Shown here: positions 8,824 to 58,272 of the stretch, one piece after another
How positions within the stretch are numbered: position 1 is the first letter of the stretch
How the letters are laid out: every line of letters begins with the position of its first letter
NCBI GenBank assembly: GCA_037043455.1
Contig: JAWPHD010005586.1
Span: 96,382-160,381, forward strand
Reading direction: 5' to 3'
Source of the DNA: Cyrtodaria siliqua
Taxonomy: Eukaryota > Mollusca > Bivalvia > Adapedonta > Hiatellidae
DNA: 64,000 nt
The notes under the pieces: generated by a model
The model's input: the letters and a program-made list of their open reading frames with translations, nothing else
The model's database searches: none
What the model was told of the DNA's origin: nothing
Made by a program: the position numbers and the translations under genes

Positions 8824-10916
8824 ATGGAAGAAGTAGCCAGCCAAGAAAGTGTTCACGGCAATTATAGGAGTAGAAAAGTTGACAATGTCCAAGATATTGA
8901 GTTTGTAGATTGGGATAATCTGTGGAATTTTCCCCATCTTTTTATGCAAAAGGATACTGATGTACGTCAATGGTGTGTAGTCCATGGCCTTTTGTCGGAA
9001 AGTATGACGTGTTTTAAAGAACTGAAAGAAAATGTGAACGGTAACAAACTTACATCTGTGTGTATGGGCACACTGGCATGGAAACAACGCAAGAGATGCA
9101 TTGATAGTGTTTCGCTTAGGTGCAGTAAAGTGAACCCACATGAAGCCAGTCTTCGACGGAATTCTTTCTTCGAAAGGTCTAAGCTGACCATACAAGATAT
9201 TATGCTGTTTGTGAAGTGCTACATGCATAAGAACTCTCTATACCAAAGTAGCAAGTTTTCCGGTGTGGCATAAAAGAGTACTGCAGTGGACTGGGCTTCG
9301 TTTGTACGCAAGGTATCCAAGGAACACTTCCACAGGAAAGAACAGGTAAGAACGTGTTATTTTACGGCTCCCACTGATTTCTATAATTTTGTCTGCAATA
9401 AAATCAGCAATCCGCAGTATTCAAACAGCGAAATAACCATAAATAAATTTCTCTGTTTTGCAACTACGTCTTGCTGTAGCGATTACCTCCCATTAACCAT
9501 ATATAGTTACGTCATATTCATGCTCATAGTTTGATGATTGGTGTGCTAAGTGTTTCGTTTTTATAAAAAAAAAGTTTTGATAATGTTCTACTAACATTAA
9601 ACAAATTCCTTAATACTATTGTTATAATTGAAGGGGCAATGAACATAACTTGTGCTCATTATCTGCCTACTTATGGACAGTGTGCCTTTAATATGTATGA
9701 CTTAAAACTTGCAGCATATTCAGAAGAAGTAGCGGGAGGCCGTGATTTTTCTACTAAATGAAGATTGCCGTGTGTCCCTTTAACACTTCACGCGAACCAG
9801 TATACAAGGGCGAACATAAAGATTTCCATAACATTGTTACGCTTCATTTTGTCGATTTCTAAAAGATGATAAAATTACGCAATGAATGACAATTTAATAT
9901 GAAAGGGACACATGGCAATGTTTGATTTTTTTATTCAGCCATTACAATTATTCCATTATTTACAGATCCCCAAACAGACCATGATAACGGGTGATGATAA
10001 CGGGTGAACTAGAGATCGACGAGTCTCTATTTGGGAGAGGCATGAAGTACCACCGAGGAAACACGCACAAGGGGTTGAAAGTATGGGTTTTTGGCATAGT
10101 GGAACGCTTGACAAATACCCTCATCATGTATCCTGTCAACGACCGCAGCGAGAAAACGTTAATTCCGCTGATTCTTCGTCACGTTCAGCCAGGATCGACC
10201 ATCTACAGTGACGGTTGGAGTTCATATTGTGGCCTCAATGAACATTTCACTGTAATACACAAATACGCTTACAAGAAGCTCTATCGCAACCTGGACACAG
10301 ACGAAATAGTTACCGTGCACACAAACCGCATTGAGGGTGCCTGGAAGCATGCAAAGGACCATTTCAAACGCATAGTGGGCATCAAACTTCCCCAATTTGA
10401 GGGTCACTTGGAGGTAATGTGGAGGAGTGAGACCATAGGCGGTAACCTGTACGACAGATTTTTTTCATCTGGTGAAAAGCGTATACCCATTGAACACGCC
10501 TCCAGTCTACACTTAACCCCACACCACTGTTCAACTCTTGGACCAGCTCCATGATATCCGGTGACGCCACCATCGATCCAGTTGTCACTGATATCGAATC
10601 TACAGCATCGGAGACGGAGTCCGACACAGATCAAAGTAGCAGAAGTACTACAGCTGAAAAACAAGATGTAGTCGAACAACCGCTGATTATAAGCTCCAAA
10701 GACAGCCAGGAAGACCCATCAAGTAGACCAATGCCACCAGCACGTATTTCTAAACACACTGCTGGGTTAATTTCAGAGCTGTTTTCATCAAGTGACGAGG
10801 AGGGGAACAAAACGCTAGTCGGTACCACTTCTACACCCACTCCCGGTCCAGCAAAACCACCTCGAAAAAAAGACAGAGTGTGCTGTCCAAAGGGCTTCAC
10901 AGTGGTGAAAAAATAA
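8824..10916 (+). pseudogene. ISXO2-like (Merlin/IS1595-type) DDE transposase relic, two exons, three lesions
   Basis: Exon 1 (8824-9345) encodes the family's N-terminal part (VDWDNLWNFPHLF..., CVVHGLLSESMTC..., the ASLRRNSFFERSKLTIQDI segment, then VDWASFVRKVSKEHF). It ends at a good donor, CAG|GTAAGA. The intron is 9346-9965 and ends TTTACAG. Exon 2 encodes the catalytic core: EIDESLFGR (first D), IYSDGW (second D) and HTNRIEGAWKHAK (final acidic residue in the IExxW context). A Ser/Glu-rich C-terminal tail lies at 10494-10916.
Lesions: (1) an in-frame TAA at 9271-9273 in exon 1, with family sequence continuing after it in the same frame; (2) a 13-bp tandem duplication at about 9981-10006 (ATGATAACGGGTG twice) that shifts frame at the start of exon 2; (3) a frame change between about 10465 and 10510, where the tail (TPLFNSW...) moves to another frame. 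The canonical zinc-ribbon cysteine pairs are not obvious. Known family role: DDE transposase or ISXO2 domain. As it stands it cannot make a full-length protein. Confidence 0.85.
9755..9920. repeat. MITE-end fragments inside the transposase intron
   Basis: AGATTGCCGTGTGTCCCTTT at about 9763-9782 and GAAAGGGACACATGGCAATG at about 9901-9920 match the right and left ends of the AGGGACAC MITE family seen at 19997-20262. They face away from each other, so these are fragments or neighbouring insertions rather than one intact element. Confidence 0.55.
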
Positions 10917-16400: not shown

Positions 16401-16404
16401 TCAT

Positions 16405-18141
16405 CATTAGGTGAGTATGCTGTACTGTGTTTCGACTGGTTCAATAGGTGAGTATGCTGTACTGTGTTTCGACTGGTTCATTAGGTGAGTATGCTGTACT
16501 GTGTTTCTACTGGTTCATTAGGTGAGTATGCTGTACTGTGTTTCTACTGGTTCATTAGGTGAGTATGCAGTACTGTGTTTCTACTGGTTCATTAGGTGAG
16601 TATGCTGTACTGTGTTTCTACTGGTTCATTAGGTGAGTATGCTGTACTGTGTTTCTACTGGTTCATTAGGTGAGTATGCAGTACTGTGTTTCTACTGGTT
16701 CATTAGGTGAGTATGCTGTACTGTGTTTCTACTGGTTCATTAGGTGAGTATGCTGTGCTGTGTTTCTACTGGTTCATTAGGTGAGTATGCTGTACTGTGT
16801 TTCTACTGGTTCATTAGGTGAGTATGCTGTACTGTGTTTCGATTGGTTCATTAGGTGAGTATGTTGTACTGTGTTTCGATTGGTTCATTAGGTGAGTATG
16901 CTGTACTGTGTTTTGATTGGTTCATTAGGTGAGTATGCTGTACTGTGTTTCGATTGGTTCATTAGGTGAGTATGCTGTACTGTGTTTCTACTGGTTCATT
17001 AGGTGAGTATGCTGTACTGTGTTTCTACTGGTTCATTAGGTGAGTATGCTGTACTGTGTTTCTACTGGTTCATTAGGTGAGTATGCTGTGCTGTGTTTCT
17101 ACTGGTTCATTAGGTGAGTATGCTGTACTGTGTTTCCACTGGTTCATTAGGTGAGTATGCTGTACTGTGTTTCTACTGGTTCATTAGGTGAGTATGCTGT
17201 ACTGTGTTTCTACTGGTTCATTAGGTGAGTATGCTGTACTGTGTTTCTACTGGTTCATTAGGTGAGTATGCTGTACTGTGTTTCCACTGGTTCATTAGGT
17301 GAGTATGCTGTACTGTGTTTCTACTGGTTCATTAGGTGAGTATGCTGTACTGTGTTTCTACTGGTTCATTAGGTGAGTATGCTGTACTGTGTTTCTACTG
17401 GTTCATTAGGTGAGTATGCTGTACTGTGTTTCTACTGGTTCATTAGGTGAGTATGCTGTACTGTGTTTCCACTGGTTCATTAGGTGAGTATGCTGTGCTG
17501 TGTTTCTACTGGTTCATTAGGTGAGTATGCTGTGCTGTGTTTCTACTGGTTCATTAGGTGAGTATGCTGTACTGTGTTTCTACTGGTTCATTAGGTGAGT
17601 ATGCTGTGCTGTGTTTCTACTGGTTCATTAGGTGAGTATGCTGTACTGTGTTTCTACTGGTTCATTAGGTGAGTATGCTGTACTGTGTTTCGACTGGTTC
17701 ATTAGGTGAGTATGCTGTGCTGTGTTTCTACTGGTTCATTAGGTGAGTATGCTGTACTGTGTTTCGACTGGTTCAATAGGTGAGTATGCTGTACTGTGTT
17801 TCTACTGGTTCATTAGGTGAGTATGCAGTACTGTGTTTCTACTGGTTCATTAGGTGAGTATGCTGTACTGTGTTTCTACTGGTTCATTAGGTGAGTATGC
17901 TGTACTGTGTTTCGACTGGTTCATTAGGTGAGTATGCTGTACTGTGTTTCGACTGGTTCATTAGGTGAGTATGCTGTACTGTGTTTCTACTGGTTCATTA
18001 GGTGAGTATGCTGTACTGTGTTTCGACTGGTTCATTAGGTGAGTATGCTGTACTGTGTTTCTACTGGTTCATTAGGTGAGTATGCTGTACTGTGTTTCTA
18101 CTGGTTCATTAGGTGAGTATGCTGTGCTGTGTTTCGACTGG
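16405..18141 (+). repeat. 37-bp minisatellite, about 47 copies
   Basis: Highly homogeneous array of a 37-bp unit (GGTGAGTATGCTGTACTGTG followed by TTTCTACTGGTTCATTA). Variants differ mainly at two or three sites (TTTCTAC/TTTCGAC/TTTCCAC/TTTCGAT; CTGTA/CTGTG/CAGTA). Every unit contains TTAG|GTGAGTATG, a strong match to the animal 5' splice-site consensus. The length is not a multiple of three, and no coding frame runs through the array. Confidence 0.97.
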
Positions 18142-18144
18142 TAT

Positions 18145-22018: not shown

Positions 22019-22245
22019 TGAGCCGATAGTTTAGAATGAAATCTCAGAGTAATATATATGATCATTACTTACTAAGCAAATGTCAAAACACATGGCTGCC
22101 CTTTTTTCCAATGATGTAAATTATTACACAAGTTTAAATGATGGCGTTTATCATAGTTTGATACCATGGGGATTGCAGTCTGTTCAATCATGGGTTCAGA
22201 CGATGTGTGTTTATTTAATCTATATCCCACCATTACATCGCTTAA

Positions 22246-22819
22246 GGTAGCTGGCGGGGTTACTCGGGAATAATCAAAATCGCGTGTATTGTGACAATGT
22301 TTTACCTGTATGTATGTTATTGTTTCTGCTTTCCATCAGTACTAATTTTAAATTGTTTAAAATAAACACCGGACTCGCAAATAGCGCCCTCTGGTGGTGC
22401 CTATTTTTACGACGAATTTTACTGTTTTCTTACGGGAAATGTACTAGAATTTAGTCAAAAGTTTAAAAAATCACATCATTTGGAATCACAATGATTTATA
22501 AACGTAATGCACGTAATATATTTAAAAAACAGCTATATCTCTTTATCGTGAGTGCATTTCTTTACGTAAGGGGTACCACGCGGTGACTACAAAATCGAGA
22601 GGATTTTTACATGTTATCGCTTTTTTACTTAAAAGTAAGCGTGATGACATATATATTTTTCTATGCCATCACATTTGTTGAAATTCCCTGCTTTGATAAA
22701 TGTAAAAATAAAGAGGGGTCGTCGAGTCAGATTTTTATCAAACAAACTTTTAAAGTTTATAGAAAGTATTAAAATTAAGGCGTCGTTTTATAGTTTTCTT
22801 TAAAATGATGTTGACGTCA
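22246..22819 (+). repeat. Left terminal inverted repeat (574 bp)
   Basis: The reverse complement of this stretch matches 25728-26296. The inner limit is judged from the shared TTGACGTCA. It ends 21 bp before the exonuclease ATG, so it probably supplies the promoter (inference). Confidence 0.9.
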
Positions 22820-22840
22820 GTCACTTGCAAATTGAGATAC

Positions 22841-24391
22841 ATGTACTTTCCTATTGACATTGAGACCCCTGGCTTGGGTAAGCTAATCCTTTATGTTTGA
22901 TCATTTCATAGAACGTAACTTGCAAAAAATTAATGGCGATTATAATAAAATAATATGCAAGAAGTATACTAAGCAGGGCATTATTGAGTATACCCATAGT
23001 GCTAGAGATGCATAGTATTGTTTTATTATGCGGATGATAATATTTACACGGGTGATAAAATCAACTGCATTTGATCTATTTAGTTGTTTGTGGTTTTTTT
23101 GTTGTTTTTTTACAAAATTCTATCAAATATTGTGAGCGTAATTATGTAGATATCGAGTAGAGCTCATGCAAATACATGATTCTAACCACCGAGCGGCCAG
23201 CGTTGACACAAACAATCATAAACTTGAGTTCCCGACAGCACTGCTGAGATTTGAATAAAATTGAATTTAATTGATTTTTAAAACTTCCCACACGCCGTTC
23301 GTTCAATGTAAATTGTATTAAAGGGTCATATAACACTACTGATTTATCAGTCTTGTTACCATATATGTTTTAATCGATAATTAAAAAACAATATTCACCA
23401 ATATAATAGTGTCGTTGTTTTTTGTTTCGCCTAAAATTCCTAAAACAATCTTACGCATTTAATATAATCTGAGAATCTATATAATATTTAAAGAGAAAAC
23501 GCCGATATTGTCATATGCCCATTTAATGTGTTACACACATACATGTATACAATGTGTCTATAGTTATGTGTGTATGCTACATAAACTGTGATACAATAAG
23601 AATCTCTTTCTTGCAGGAATTGACTGTAGTATTATTCAACTTGCAGCAAAGCATTTGACAACAGGAGAGACTTTCAACAAATATGTTCAGCCGGCTAGCG
23701 GTTTTATTCCGAAAAACATTAAAAAATAACGGAAATTGAAATTCATGGCGGAACTATGTTCCATCAAATGTCTCCAGTTCCTTCGGTTCCACTTAAAAGA
23801 GCATTAGACGAATTTAAAACATGGCTCTTAAAATTTAGTACACCTGTATTGGTTGCCCATAATGCTCAATTTGACGCTAAAATTTTAATTAACAGTTGCA
23901 CGGAAAAAGCCATCACTTTGACAAACATTGTTGGTTTTTCCGATAGCCTCAAACTATTCAAGCTTGTGTTTCCAGGCATGCCAAATTATCGACAGTCAAA
24001 ACTTGTTAAGGAAAAACTCAACACAGGCTATAACGAACATAATGCCATTGCAGATGTAACTGCTCTTGTGGACTTGCTGGACATCGCTGACAACTTTGAA
24101 AGTTTGCTAACTATCTTTTCAGTCAATGATGTTACATACAAAAACAACCAAATTAAAAAACAAAAACGATATTTATCATCGTATTCAGACTTGATTGAAA
24201 GAAAAGTTATTTCCAAAACTCACTCAAAACAACTAGCTTCAAGTGGTTTAGGTTTGAGCCATATAAATACTGTGTGCAAAAGATCTGGTATAGATGGTCT
24301 GACAACGCTGCTGAAGGACAGGTTACAGAAACCTTCAAAACTTGTTTATTCACTTTTTTCGGAACTAGGTGCAGACGAAAAGGTGCTGTAA
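22841..24391 (+). CDS. DEDDh-family exonuclease, two exons, one 1-nt frame break
   Basis: Role: the DEDDh (EXOIII / PolC-epsilon-like) fold removes nucleotides 3'-5' from DNA or RNA using two metal ions.
Exon 1 (22841-22877) starts MYFPIDIETPGLG and carries Exo I (D-I-E-T). Its donor is G|GTAAGC. The intron is 22878-23616, ending TTTCTTGCAG. Exon 2 (23617-24391) continues in phase (GIDCSIIQLAAKHL). It has Exo II (VAHNAQFDAKIL) and Exo III with the catalytic His (NEHNAIADVTAL). A C-terminal extension of about 100 residues (...KQLASSGLGLSHINTVCKRS...) follows, which I cannot assign to a domain.
The frame breaks at the A6 run 23721-23726, where a TAA follows directly. Losing one A explains it, since ITEIEIHGG is read in the next frame, which then stays open to 24391. 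Intact length would be about 270 residues. It may be a freshly broken gene, an A-run sequencing error, or (less likely) a site of frameshifting. The start was chosen because this ATG is directly upstream of Exo I and just inside the TIR. Apart from the single indel the frame is clean, so decay is slight. Confidence 0.8.
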
Positions 24392-25110
24392 ATATGAAAA
24401 TATGAAAATAATCATTCAAGTTTACGGAAAGACCAGCCCGTTGTATGAATATAGAAGTGTAAAGGTTAAGTTATCTTTGCAAAGAGAAATACATACATAA
24501 ACACATACACTGAAAACCGAATCAGCACTTATTATATTATATACTGAAAGGAAAAAGAAACGCATAATGGGTATTTCCGCTATATATTGTATGTTTATTA
24601 TGCTGCTGCTAATCGAATGGTACATGGCGACATTAGGCCTGTCCTTTCGGAAAGAAAGTTTAAACAGCACCAAACACAACAATGGTTACCCCTTTAAAGT
24701 TTCATTATCGACAGAATGCGCATTTGGCTCAAGCAAGTAAGCAAACTTAGGCTTTAAATGTTGCAATCTATTAACATTAAACATAATACTGAAATGGCTT
24801 CACTTTTTCAAGCGAAACTTCAACATGAATGCATTTCTTGTAACAAAGTATACGTTGATTAAAAGGTCTACTACATGGCAGAGTTGTTCTTTCTGTAATT
24901 AGCTGTAGCCCCTTTTTGTACAAAACACGTTGAGATATATCTGGGATATTACGCGAAATTAGGTGTGTATAATAGTGTAGTATAGGCAATTGTGTGAGTA
25001 TGCGTTTCTTTTTTCCTTTCAGTATATGAACGAGAACAACTATTTAATGAATCGGACGCTTCCTATTTTACGGATTACTTCCGAGAGACATCGATTGTTT
25101 ATTCCAAGTC
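24392..25110. other. Element interior, no recognised gene
   Basis: AT-rich. Minus-strand open frames (24422-24682, 24777-24989) show no recognisable domain. No polyadenylation AATAAA was noticed directly after the exonuclease stop. Confidence 0.4.
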
Positions 25111-25112
25111 TA

Positions 25113-25257
25113 TAATTGAATTGAATTGGGTTTTAAGGCGCACCAACACATGAAAGGTTAATGGCGCCTAACAGGCATGAACATGCCAGGCTCATCCTCC
25201 ATGTACATTGAGATAAAATATGGAAAATGGGCCTAGAACCTTCTCACCCTGAAATTA
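25113..25257 (-). mobile_element. SINE-like element, family C (5'-truncated), inside the exonuclease element
   Basis: On the minus strand it reads 'agaaggttctaggcccattttcc...gagcctggcatgttcatgcctgttaggcgccat', then GTGTTGGTGCGCCTTAAAAC and CCAATTCAATTCAAT. The same block occurs at 31841-32060, 57355-57590 and 57776-58020. Confidence 0.75.
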
Positions 25258-25727
25258 TATATCTAGACATAATACCATTAGTTATGAAAATGATGTGTTT
25301 GGGTGTTAATAGTCATGTGTTGCATATCCCGTCTATTTCTGAATTTAATACATGTATATTCATAACCATTTTCCAATCATTATTTTGTGTTTTGCTATGC
25401 GGTGCCTATTAACATATATGTTTGTATGTATTATTTCCTCATGATGGCATGTGTACGAATTGAGCAAATAAAAAGAATAGTTGATTTGATATTTGAATCG
25501 ATTTGAATGATCATTCTTACCCAAACAGCAACTTTGACAACACATGCTGTTTAAGACGGGTCGCAAACAGATAATAAACAGGTAAAATAACACCAGTAAA
25601 ATTTGCAACTAAACGACTTTACTTCTTACAACATATTTAATGAATTAAACAGTTCAATAACATGAACACACGATCTTGAATTAGTTAACAATAGTAATAC
25701 AAAGTAAACATCGCGCGTCAAAACTCG

Positions 25728-26296
25728 TGACGTCAACGTCATTTTAAACAAACCTATAAAACGACGCCGTAATTTTAATACTTTCTATAAACTTTAAAAG
25801 TTTGATCAAAATCTGACTCGATGACCCCTCTTTATTTTTACATTTATCAAAGCAGGGAATTTCAACGAATGTGATGGCATAGAAAAATATATATGTCATC
25901 ACGCTTACTTTTAAGTAAAAAAGCGATAACATGTAAAAATCCTCTCGATTTTGTAGTCACCGCGTGGTACCCCTTACGTAAAGAAATGCACTCACGATAA
26001 AGAGATATAGCTGTTTTTTAAATATATTACGTGCATTACGTTTATAAATCATTGTGATTCCAAATGATGTGATTTTTTTAACTTTTGACTAAATTCTAGT
26101 ACATTTCCCTAAGAAAACGGTAAAATTCGTCGTAAAAATAGGCACCGCCAGAGGGTGCTATTTAGGAATCCGATGTTTATTTTAAACAATTTAAAATTAG
26201 TACTGATGGAAAGCAGAAACAATAACATACATACAGGTAAAACATTTTCTCAATACACACGATTTTGATTATTCCCAAGTAACCCCGCCAGCTACC
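25728..26296 (-). repeat. Right terminal inverted repeat (569 bp)
   Basis: Inverted copy of 22246-22819, ending GTAACCCCGCCAGCTACC before TTAA. Confidence 0.9.
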
Positions 26297-26300
26297 TTAA

Positions 26301-31840: not shown

Positions 31841-32060
31841 CTTTGAATTGAATTGGATTTTAAGGCGCACCAACACATGAAAGGTTATATGACGCCTAAG
31901 ATGAATGAAAATGCCAGGCTCATCCTCCACTTACATCAAGATAAAATATGTAGAATGGGCCTAGAACTTTCTTACCTGCAGAGTTGCTGCCATTTATGAT
32001 GGAGCCACGTTTCCACGTTTGACGCGGTGTCATGACCTTGAATGAGCATGGTAAAAAATG
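31841..32060 (-). mobile_element. SINE-like element, family C (longer copy)
   Basis: The minus strand includes the upstream block (AACGTGGCTCCATCATAAAT, GGCAGCAACTCTGCAGGTAA) and the body, then GTTGGTGCGCCTTAAAATCC and AATTCAATTCAA. The 5' limit is uncertain. Confidence 0.7.
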
Positions 32061-36182: not shown

Positions 36183-36221
36183 AGAACTTTTTTTTTTTTT
36201 TTTCATTCAATATACAGGATA

Positions 36222-38135
36222 GATGAGAGATATTACATACAGGACAGGTAAGAGATATTACATACGGGACAGATGAGAGATATTACATACAGGACAGATG
36301 AGAGATATTACATACGGGACAGATGAGAGATATTACATACGGGATAGATGAGAGATATTACATACGGGACAGGTGAGAGATATTACATACGGGATAGATG
36401 AGAGATATTACATACAGGACAGATGGGAGATATTACATACGGGACAGATGAGAGATATTACATACGGGACAGATGAGAGATATTACATACAGGACAGATG
36501 AGAGATATTACATACGGGACAGATGAGAGATATTACATACGGGACAGATGAGAGCTATTACATACAGGACAGATGAGAGATATTACATACGGGACAGATG
36601 AGAGATATTACATACGGGATAGATGAGAGATATTACATACAGGACAGATGAGAGATATTACATATGGGACAGATGAGAGATATTACATACAGGACAGATG
36701 AGAGATATTACAAACAGGACAGATGAGAGATATTACATACAGGATATTACATACGGGACAGATGAGAGATATTATATACAGGACAGATGAGAGATATTAC
36801 ATACAGGATAGATGAGAGATATTACATACAGGATAGATGAGAGATATTACATACAGGACAGATGAGAGATATTACATACAGGACAAATTAGAGATATTAC
36901 ATACAGGTCAGATGAGAGATACTACATACAGGACAAATTAGAGATATTACTTACGGGACAGATGAGAGATATTACATACAGGACAGATGAGAGATATTGC
37001 ATACGGGACAGATGAGAGATATTACATACAGGACAGATGAGAGATATTACATACGGGACAGATGAAAGATATTACATACAGGATAGATGAGAGATATTAC
37101 ATACAGGACAGATGAGAGATATTACATACGGGATAGATGAGAGATATTACATACAGGACAGATGAGAGATATTACATACAGGACAGATGAGAGATATTAC
37201 ATACGGGACAGATGAGAGATATTACATACAGGATATTACATACGGGACAGATGAGAGATATTACATACAGGATATTACATACGGGACAGATGAGAGATAT
37301 TACATACAGGATATTACATACGGGACAGATGAGAGATATTACATACAGGACAGATGAGAGATATTACATACAGGATATTACATACGGGACAGATGAGAGA
37401 TATTACATACAGGATATTACATACGGGACAGATGAGAGATATTACATACAGGACAGATGAGAGATATTACATACAGGATATTACATACGGGACAGATGAG
37501 AGATATTTCATACAGGATATTACATACGGGACAGATGAGAGATATTACATACAGGATATTACATACGGGACAGATGAGAGATATTACATACAGGATATTA
37601 CATACGGGACAGATGAGAGATATTACATACGGGACAGATGAGAGATATTACATACAGGATATTACATACGGGACAGATGAGAGATATTACAAACAGGACA
37701 GATGAGAGATATTACATACAGGATATTACATACGGGACAGATGAGAGATATTACATACAGGACAGATGAGAGATATTACATACAGGACAAATGAGAGATA
37801 TTACATACGGGGGATAGATGAGAGATATTACATACAGGATATTACATACAGGACAGATGAGAGATATTACATACAGGACAGATGAGAGATATTACATACG
37901 GGACAAATGAGAGATATTACATACAGGACAGATGAGAGATATTACATACGGGACAAATGAGAGATATTACATACGGGGGATAGATGAGAGATATTACATA
38001 CAGGATAGATGAGAGATATTACATACAGGACAGATGAGATATATTACATACAGGACAAATTAGAGATATTACATACAGGACAGATGAGAGATATTACATA
38101 CAGGACAGATGAGAGATATTACATACAGGACAATT
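36222..38135 (+). repeat. 25-bp minisatellite with a 39-bp higher-order form
   Basis: About 70 units of GGACAGATGAGAGATATTAC + ATACA/ATACG. Between about 36740 and 37850 many units gain a 14-bp partial copy (GGATATTACATACG), giving a 39-bp unit that is a multiple of three. The short open frames that result are a by-product of this and not genes. Confidence 0.97.
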
Positions 38136-38239
38136 GAGAGAAATGAACGACAAACAGTATTTATCAGAAAATATATGTGCAAAATATTTAGAAAATAAAT
38201 GAGTAAACATTTTTCAAAGAAACACGCAGCAAAATCGTT

Positions 38240-39319: not shown

Positions 39320-39517
39320 ATGATAGATCCTTTTTCTTGCAAATCAGAGCCTTTTTGTACATTGACGCCGCCAGCTACTATCGTTTTGCATGTTTTTCGG
39401 TATACCAGATGTTGGCGCGCATGAATTTTATCTCGACCCTAGGGTGAGATGGAAATATCTAGCCCCTGTAAAATGACGGATATCCTTGTCCGGTATGCAA
39501 GAAAATCTGATCTATCG
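39320..39517. repeat. ~200-bp element with inverted ends
   Basis: TGATAGATCCTTTTTCTTGC at 39320 is mirrored by GCAAGAAAATCTGATCTATC at 39497-39516. Confidence 0.65.
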
Positions 39518-57235: not shown

Positions 57236-57585
57236 TTGGAGGGGTAGGCAGAGGGGTAGAATCCCCCCAAATTCATGTTCATTTTATCATTTTTTGTTCA
57301 TGTTCATTAAAGGTCTTCATCATGATCCCTGCATTGTTTCAGGTGCTATCTCGCTCACATCAAAAGAGCAGTGGCAGAAAAACAATAACGTGGCTCCAAC
57401 GTAAATGGAGTTTCTACGATAGAATTTGCAGCAACTCTGCAGTTCAGGGTGAGAAGGTTCTAGGCCCATTTTCCATATTTTATCTCAATGTACATGGAAG
57501 ATGAGCCTGGCATGTTCATGCCTTTTAGGCCCCATATAACCTTTTCATGTGTTGGTGCGCCTTAAAACCCCAATTCAATTCAATT
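57236..57585 (+). repeat. Direct duplication copy 1, including a family C SINE
   Basis: TGGAGGGGTAGGCAGAGGGG to ...CCCCAATTCAATTCA. Nearly identical to 57676-58020. The SINE part (from about 57355) has TTCTAGGCCCATTTTCCATA and GTTGGTGCGCCTTAAAACCC. Confidence 0.9.
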
Positions 57586-57675: not shown

Positions 57676-58020
57676 GAGGGGTAGGCAGAGGGGTAGAATC
57701 CCCCCAAATTCATGTTCATTTTATCATTTTTTGTTCATGTTCATTAAAGGTCTTCATCATGATCCCTGCATTGTTTCAGGTGCTATCTTACTCGCATCAA
57801 AAGAGCAGTGACAGAAAAACAATAAACATGGCTCCAGCATAAATGGAGTTTCTACGATAGAATTTGTAGCAACTATGCAGTTCAGGGTGAGAAGGTTCTA
57901 GGCCCATTTTCCATATTTTATCTCGATGTACATGGAAGATGAGCCTGGCATGTTCATGCCTGTTAGGCGCCATATAACCTTTTCATGTGTTGGTGTGCCT
58001 TAAAACCCCAATTCAATTCA
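57676..58020 (+). repeat. Direct duplication copy 2
   Basis: Second copy of 57236-57585, differing at scattered positions (for example TCTCGCTCAC versus TCTTACTCGC). The two are separated by about 90 bp containing a G/C-rich GGGCCCCGTGTGGTTCCCGG. Confidence 0.9.
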
Positions 58021-58272
58021 TTTAACTTGTATCTTGCTTCGACTCTGTGCACAGCAGTAGTTATCAAGTTGACATATACATCTGTAATATCATATCCATA
58101 TTGCAATGCAAATTACAATTTTATAGATAAAATAAATAACCCTGTCAATTTATATTATAAATTGTCTTGTTTGTTAATCCCCAGCAGTTAATATCTTGGC
58201 ATGTTCAAAGGCTAGGCACACATGATTGCATTACAGTGTTTGAATGTTAAATAAATCTTTATTTTGTTTAAA

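Follow-up and report, generated by a model that had tools for sequence, protein, structure and literature searches.

Our analysis of a stretch of 64,000 nucleotides from the bivalve Cyrtodaria siliqua (hereafter the window) centres on a TTAA-flanked 4-kb element with 570-bp inverted ends and a frameshifted exonuclease–PML_C gene, and probably represents a non-autonomous relative of KolobokD transposons from which an internal part has been deleted; its likeness to KolobokD is judged by the published description of that lineage. As far as protein sequences tell, an exonuclease joined to PML_C, the make-up of the C-terminus of PML isoform I, is a transposon module, the link to PML running through the Pfam model and through Plex9. 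The KolobokD kind of element is already known, and it is the PML link that is the new part.

According to Kojima & Bao (2022; PMC9587614), the Kolobok superfamily is characterized by TTAA duplications and 5'-RR...YY-3' ends, and DxxH and E flank a zinc finger in almost all of its members; KolobokD is the Kolobok lineage that encodes a DEDDh exonuclease, comes from molluscs, arthropods and cnidarians, and has a CCHC finger also present in KolobokP, KolobokE and Kolobok5. The same authors liken the KolobokD nuclease to Exuperantia, TREX and ERI1, and propose that it digests DNA intermediates starting at the 3' end. An earlier note on this DNA had taken the element to be undescribed and without a named family, a claim that has to be given up since KolobokD was already in print with its DEDDh exonuclease. 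The window element has in common with KolobokD the DEDDh (DnaQ) exonuclease, the TTAA duplications and RR...YY ends of the superfamily, and occurrence in a mollusc; it differs in that the exonuclease stands alone, without a transposase, in a frame that starts in or beside the 570-bp terminal inverted repeat (TIR).

The exonuclease gene

Between the inverted arms the only recognizable gene is, as the earlier note had it, that of a DEDDh exonuclease. Predicted exon 1 (22841..22877, + strand), which runs from the ATG at 22841 that the note had chosen to a GT donor, codes MYFPIDIETPGLG with exonuclease motif I (D-I-E). A predicted GT–AG intron of 739 bp (GTAAGC...TTGCAG; 22878..23616, +) leads to predicted exon 2 (23617..24391, +, with the stop at 24391), in which Pfam places the remaining DEDDh exonuclease (RNase_T) and PML_C. 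Additional in-frame ATGs at 22805 and 22808 lie inside the left TIR, so that translation may begin within the repeat. A single frame change near 23723–23729, at an A-run in predicted exon 2 (open segment 23723–24391), suggests a dead copy or else an assembly error.

The protein read through this point with X matches RNase_T at 1.1e-11 and PML_C at 1.3e-8, the latter with 35.4 bits against a Pfam cut-off of 27.1. All five DEDDh catalytic residues are present in this frameshifted copy, a nuclease of the type reported for KolobokD. Of 60 family rows examined, 53 are without gaps at these sites, and 52 of the 53 likewise have the full set. Relatives of the window protein are distant: a single-sequence protein search returned one match, a Dreissena polymorpha protein 37% identical, and the highest identity to any row was 42% (P0011). 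The 211-aa ORF had no match among phage records, and a search of Rfam gave none at the gathering score.

Fusion of transposase, exonuclease and PML_C

Profile searches brought the family to 31 matches and then to 67 among the matches listed, the third protein search having scored the 7990 candidates that shared most words; P0008, P0017 and P0020 are absent from its list of 67. A Mutator-like transposase domain (PF20700) is carried by 30 of the 67 matches listed, and in 25 of the 67 it occurs in one protein with PML_C (PF25244); 23 of those 25 also list RNase_T or the Exu-like model. In a domain scan of 39 proteins PF20700 was found in 31, PML_C in 34, the Exu-like model in 34 and RNase_T in 32. 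By coordinates the order in P0032 is transposase (25–231), exonuclease (426–589) and PML_C (628–701), and P0008 and P0016 have the same order. All three parts are present in P0046 from Saccostrea cucullata, which we take to be an oyster, and in P0054 from the sponge Sycon ciliatum, while P0064 from the wasp Prorops nasuta has the transposase and PML_C with no exonuclease model listed, and P0058 from Ruditapes has the transposase and exonuclease without PML_C. Among the 22 rows P0075–P0096, mostly PolC- and DnaQ-type exonucleases, PML_C is listed in none.

Pattern scans of rows P0032–P0065 point in the direction of KolobokD. The nine patterns D, CCHC, DD, DxxH, zinc finger, E and exonuclease motifs I–III are all found in order in 8 of these 34 rows, the remainder being truncated or lacking one or more of the nine; a CCHC follows the first D in 23/34 and a zinc finger lies between DxxH and E in 28/34, several of the rows being truncated. 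By pattern, then, the zinc-finger features of KolobokD (CCHC, and a finger before E) belong to the fusion relatives and not to the window copy.

The earlier note had left the nuclease as either cargo or a functional part. Because transposase and PML_C are joined in so many of the matches listed, nearly all of them with an exonuclease model, the nuclease seems, on sequence evidence, to be a functional component of autonomous relatives more than random cargo. The strongest competitor to a KolobokD relative is a resident host exonuclease of Plex9/Exu type, captured as passenger cargo by a TTAA or foldback element of unrelated kind and now lying between its long TIRs. To its credit are the lack of a transposase in the element, the treatment of the family members Plex9 and Exu as host genes, and a bivalve-type exonuclease group in which 12 of 13 rows have no transposase domain listed. 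We nevertheless regard such a capture as unlikely, given the 23 proteins among the 67 matches listed that unite exonuclease, PML_C and a Kolobok-type transposase, and given that TTAA duplications and RR...YY ends are properties of the very superfamily to which KolobokD belongs (PMC9587614).

That bivalve-type group, which includes P0011, is itself supported (97/96), and the single row with a transposase domain listed is P0008, implying either that a free-standing nuclease lineage exists or that the rows are fragments. In the first profile search (31 matches), P0023 (331 aa) represents 501 member sequences, the next-largest 55. This exonuclease has a tail that aligns to the PML_C portion of the profile, and no transposase domain is listed for it; it is perhaps another high-copy nuclease-only element.

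Viral contigs searched with P0016, P0005, A7 and A8 yielded no relatives; one viral match (L001) to a window segment, over 35 residues otherwise matched only by P0005, was taken as a generic exonuclease. Bacterial and archaeal genomes gave none with A7 and, with A8, one match of 29% (L002, in a Thermaceae MAG).

Phylogeny and direction of descent

In the tree, from which P0021 and P0022 were left out (for the p-AU tests also P0029, P0074 and Exu), the exonuclease family stands apart from the PolC/DnaQ-type outgroup rows with support of 96/99; the outgroup rows are labelled bacterial, and one of them (P0074) grouped with animal rows. One analysis kept the 45 rows in which the exonuclease and PML_C columns are both filled. 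The window exonuclease falls in no supported subclade of the trees, and its union with the bivalve exonuclease-only rows was not rejected (p-AU 0.30); nor was a tree in which all animal rows but Plex9 group together (p-AU 0.346).

To our knowledge, PML exon 9 and Plex9 are confined to jawed vertebrates and Exu to insects. Because the fusion spans sponge, bivalve and insect, as against such narrowly spread host genes, a direction from transposon to host is favoured, an argument drawn from distribution and not from the tree. The supported bivalve-type group weighs the other way, as nuclease genes that stand alone may form an ancient lineage in their own right.

Ends, arms and target site

The inverted arms (22242–22819 and 25728–26300; 578 and 573 bp with TTAA counted in) are 95.8% identical, and their alignment stops at TTAA on both sides. 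Minus the TTAA they are the 574/569-bp ends of the earlier note, which was right both on these lengths and on a TTAA at each outermost base. The left TIR (22246..22819, +), with terminus 5'-GGTAGCTGGCGGGG, adjoins one putative target-site duplication (TTAA, 22242..22245), and the right TIR (25728..26296, –) adjoins the other (TTAA, 26297..26300), so that both arms start TTAA-GGTAGCTGGCGGGG; the outer flanks read ATCGC-TTAA on the left and, in reverse complement, TCAGT-TTAA on the right. In this one insertion, then, the TTAA expected of a Kolobok target-site duplication lies on both sides, and the element termini, 5'-GG...CC, agree with the Kolobok 5'-RR...YY-3' form. The palindrome TGACGTCA, the CREB-site consensus, lies at the inner edge of both TIRs (22812 and 25728) and occurs four times in the window.

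In addition to the two ends of the element, the window holds three further TIR-end matches with 2–3 mismatches, the best at 39366–39379 (–); none of 100 shuffles reached the total of five (mean 0.78). The TIR terminus (18 bp including TTAA) had 0 matches in viral contigs.

TTAA starts at 637 of the 64,000 window positions (1.0%) and accounts for 0.11 of TA occurrences, so that a true TA target would acquire the extra T and A by chance about once in nine and a single insertion cannot fully tell a TTAA from a TA target. Since the junctions can also be read T-TA-A, one may think of a long-TIR element with a TA target, Tc1/mariner-like or otherwise, whose TTAA would be a chance extension of TA; we hold it to be quite improbable, the encoded gene being of the KolobokD family, whose superfamily targets TTAA. 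Slightly less probable again is a non-autonomous piggyBac-type element, which would share the TTAA at both ends; no transposase is present in the element to compare, the 5'-GG...CC ends follow the RR...YY rule of Kolobok, which is set apart from piggyBac by its termini (PMC9587614), and the kinship of the gene favours Kolobok. A simple inverted segmental duplication around the exonuclease gene, never mobile, would suit the sighting of one copy only and is the least probable of all, with arms whose alignment stops at TTAA on either side and a gene family that is often transposon-borne among the 67 matches listed.

No transposase detected, and probable later insertions

A likely KolobokD relative thus remains the preferred reading, and it is one without its own transposase: tblastn of 39 fusion relatives at E up to 1 gave 43 matches in the element, 0 of them in the transposase part, and three weak matches elsewhere in the window (E 0.13–0.36). 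The DDD/E transposase with C/DxxH motif that belongs to Kolobok was not found in the element, in agreement with the earlier note, which had seen no transposase and called for help in trans. Since no transposase part was detected, the element could move only if a transposase acts in trans, and it is described here only as a non-autonomous Kolobok relative.

The 3' half of the element contains a probable nested small element of ~0.49 kb (24540..25026, limits approximate) with ~27-bp inverted ends (TATACTGAAAGGAAAAAGAAACGCATA) and a ~140-bp dispersed repeat (25113..25253), of which a blastn search with the element as query found three other copies in the window (31843–31976, 57443–57585 and 57881–58024), 89–96% identical to the one within the element. 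Both are probable later insertions.

Two further features of the window may be recorded. An ORF at 9988–10554 (+) holds an ISXO2/IS1595-like DDE transposase domain (PF12762, 2.9e-18) and is apparently unrelated to the TTAA element; tandem arrays occupy 16404–18142 (37-bp x 47) and 36212–38141 (25-bp), with strong GC and AT skew in both regions.

Proposed working and state of this copy

The exonuclease follows immediately on the left TIR, and nothing of a transposase was detected between the two, an arrangement that internal deletion would leave. The element may thus be the product of such a deletion in a transposon encoding a transposase–exonuclease–PML_C fusion, and we infer that the window gene descends from a fusion protein. 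By analogy with the superfamily, a KolobokD transposase encoded at another place in the genome would recognize and bind the long TIRs, cut at TTAA and reinsert the element at another TTAA. The exonuclease, expressed from the TIR side, might then shorten DNA 3' ends where the element is excised or inserted; fusion proteins would have it delivered there by their own transposase part. The window copy is probably inactive, because its gene is frameshifted, its arms differ by ~4% and two elements were probably inserted later; considered by itself, it is a non-autonomous transposon in decay.

The link to PML, Plex9 and Exuperantia

With its RNase_T domain followed by PML_C, the window gene has the make-up of the PML/Plex9 type. 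Among the chains listed, the closest solved structure is fish Plex9, for example zebrafish Plex9.1 (9MRC/9MRD), of which the solved chains (about 190 residues) comprise the exonuclease domain only; the C-terminal part of the models is barely covered by the chains listed in these structure comparisons. Drosophila Exuperantia (5L80, 5L7Z) is 18–21% identical to the P0005 model, and no entry named PML occurs among the 60 PDB chains listed. We know of no fish Plex9 that is transposon-borne.

A 2026 preprint (PMC12934764) describes the C-terminal region of PML isoform I (exon 9; PXL domain) as one in which a helical SAM-like domain comes after an exonuclease-like domain, a pair that among structural relatives of PML-1 is found only in Exuperantia, a pseudo-nuclease host gene; PML-I retains one of the four DEDD residues and showed no nuclease activity. 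The window protein shares with PML isoform I the exonuclease-like and helical domains by way of its match to Pfam PML_C, the link passing through that model and Plex9, and differs in that the PML-I region belongs to a larger host protein. We infer that PML_C is the SAM-like part of PML isoform I.

The literature search found no paper that joins Kolobok, exonuclease and PML, and none that joins the PML exon 9 exonuclease with transposon domestication. PMC9587614 was the sole paper it found on KolobokD and the sole one joining exuperantia, transposase and exonuclease, and its text has 0 occurrences each of 'PML' and 'fused'.

Fish Plex9 reportedly restrains retrotransposons, in agreement with what Mathavarajah et al. 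(2023) state in their title. That paper, cited in PMC12206365 and PMC11602975, may already discuss the origin. We give an even chance to the proposal that PML isoform I exon 9, fish Plex9 and the Exuperantia nuclease are domesticated parts of KolobokD, hosts having repeatedly taken the exonuclease–PML_C end, fish having turned the nuclease on retrotransposons, and transposase-less elements whose gene starts at the TIR having been a step towards the free-standing gene.

With exonuclease and PML_C present within transposase proteins, those of sponge and oyster included, the idea that PML exon 9 came from a transposon can be tested. If PML_C is the SAM-like part, the fusion transposons would be a concrete and testable origin for the Plex9 nucleases as well as for the domain specific to PML isoform I, and might account for the annotation of such exonuclease genes in several bivalves.
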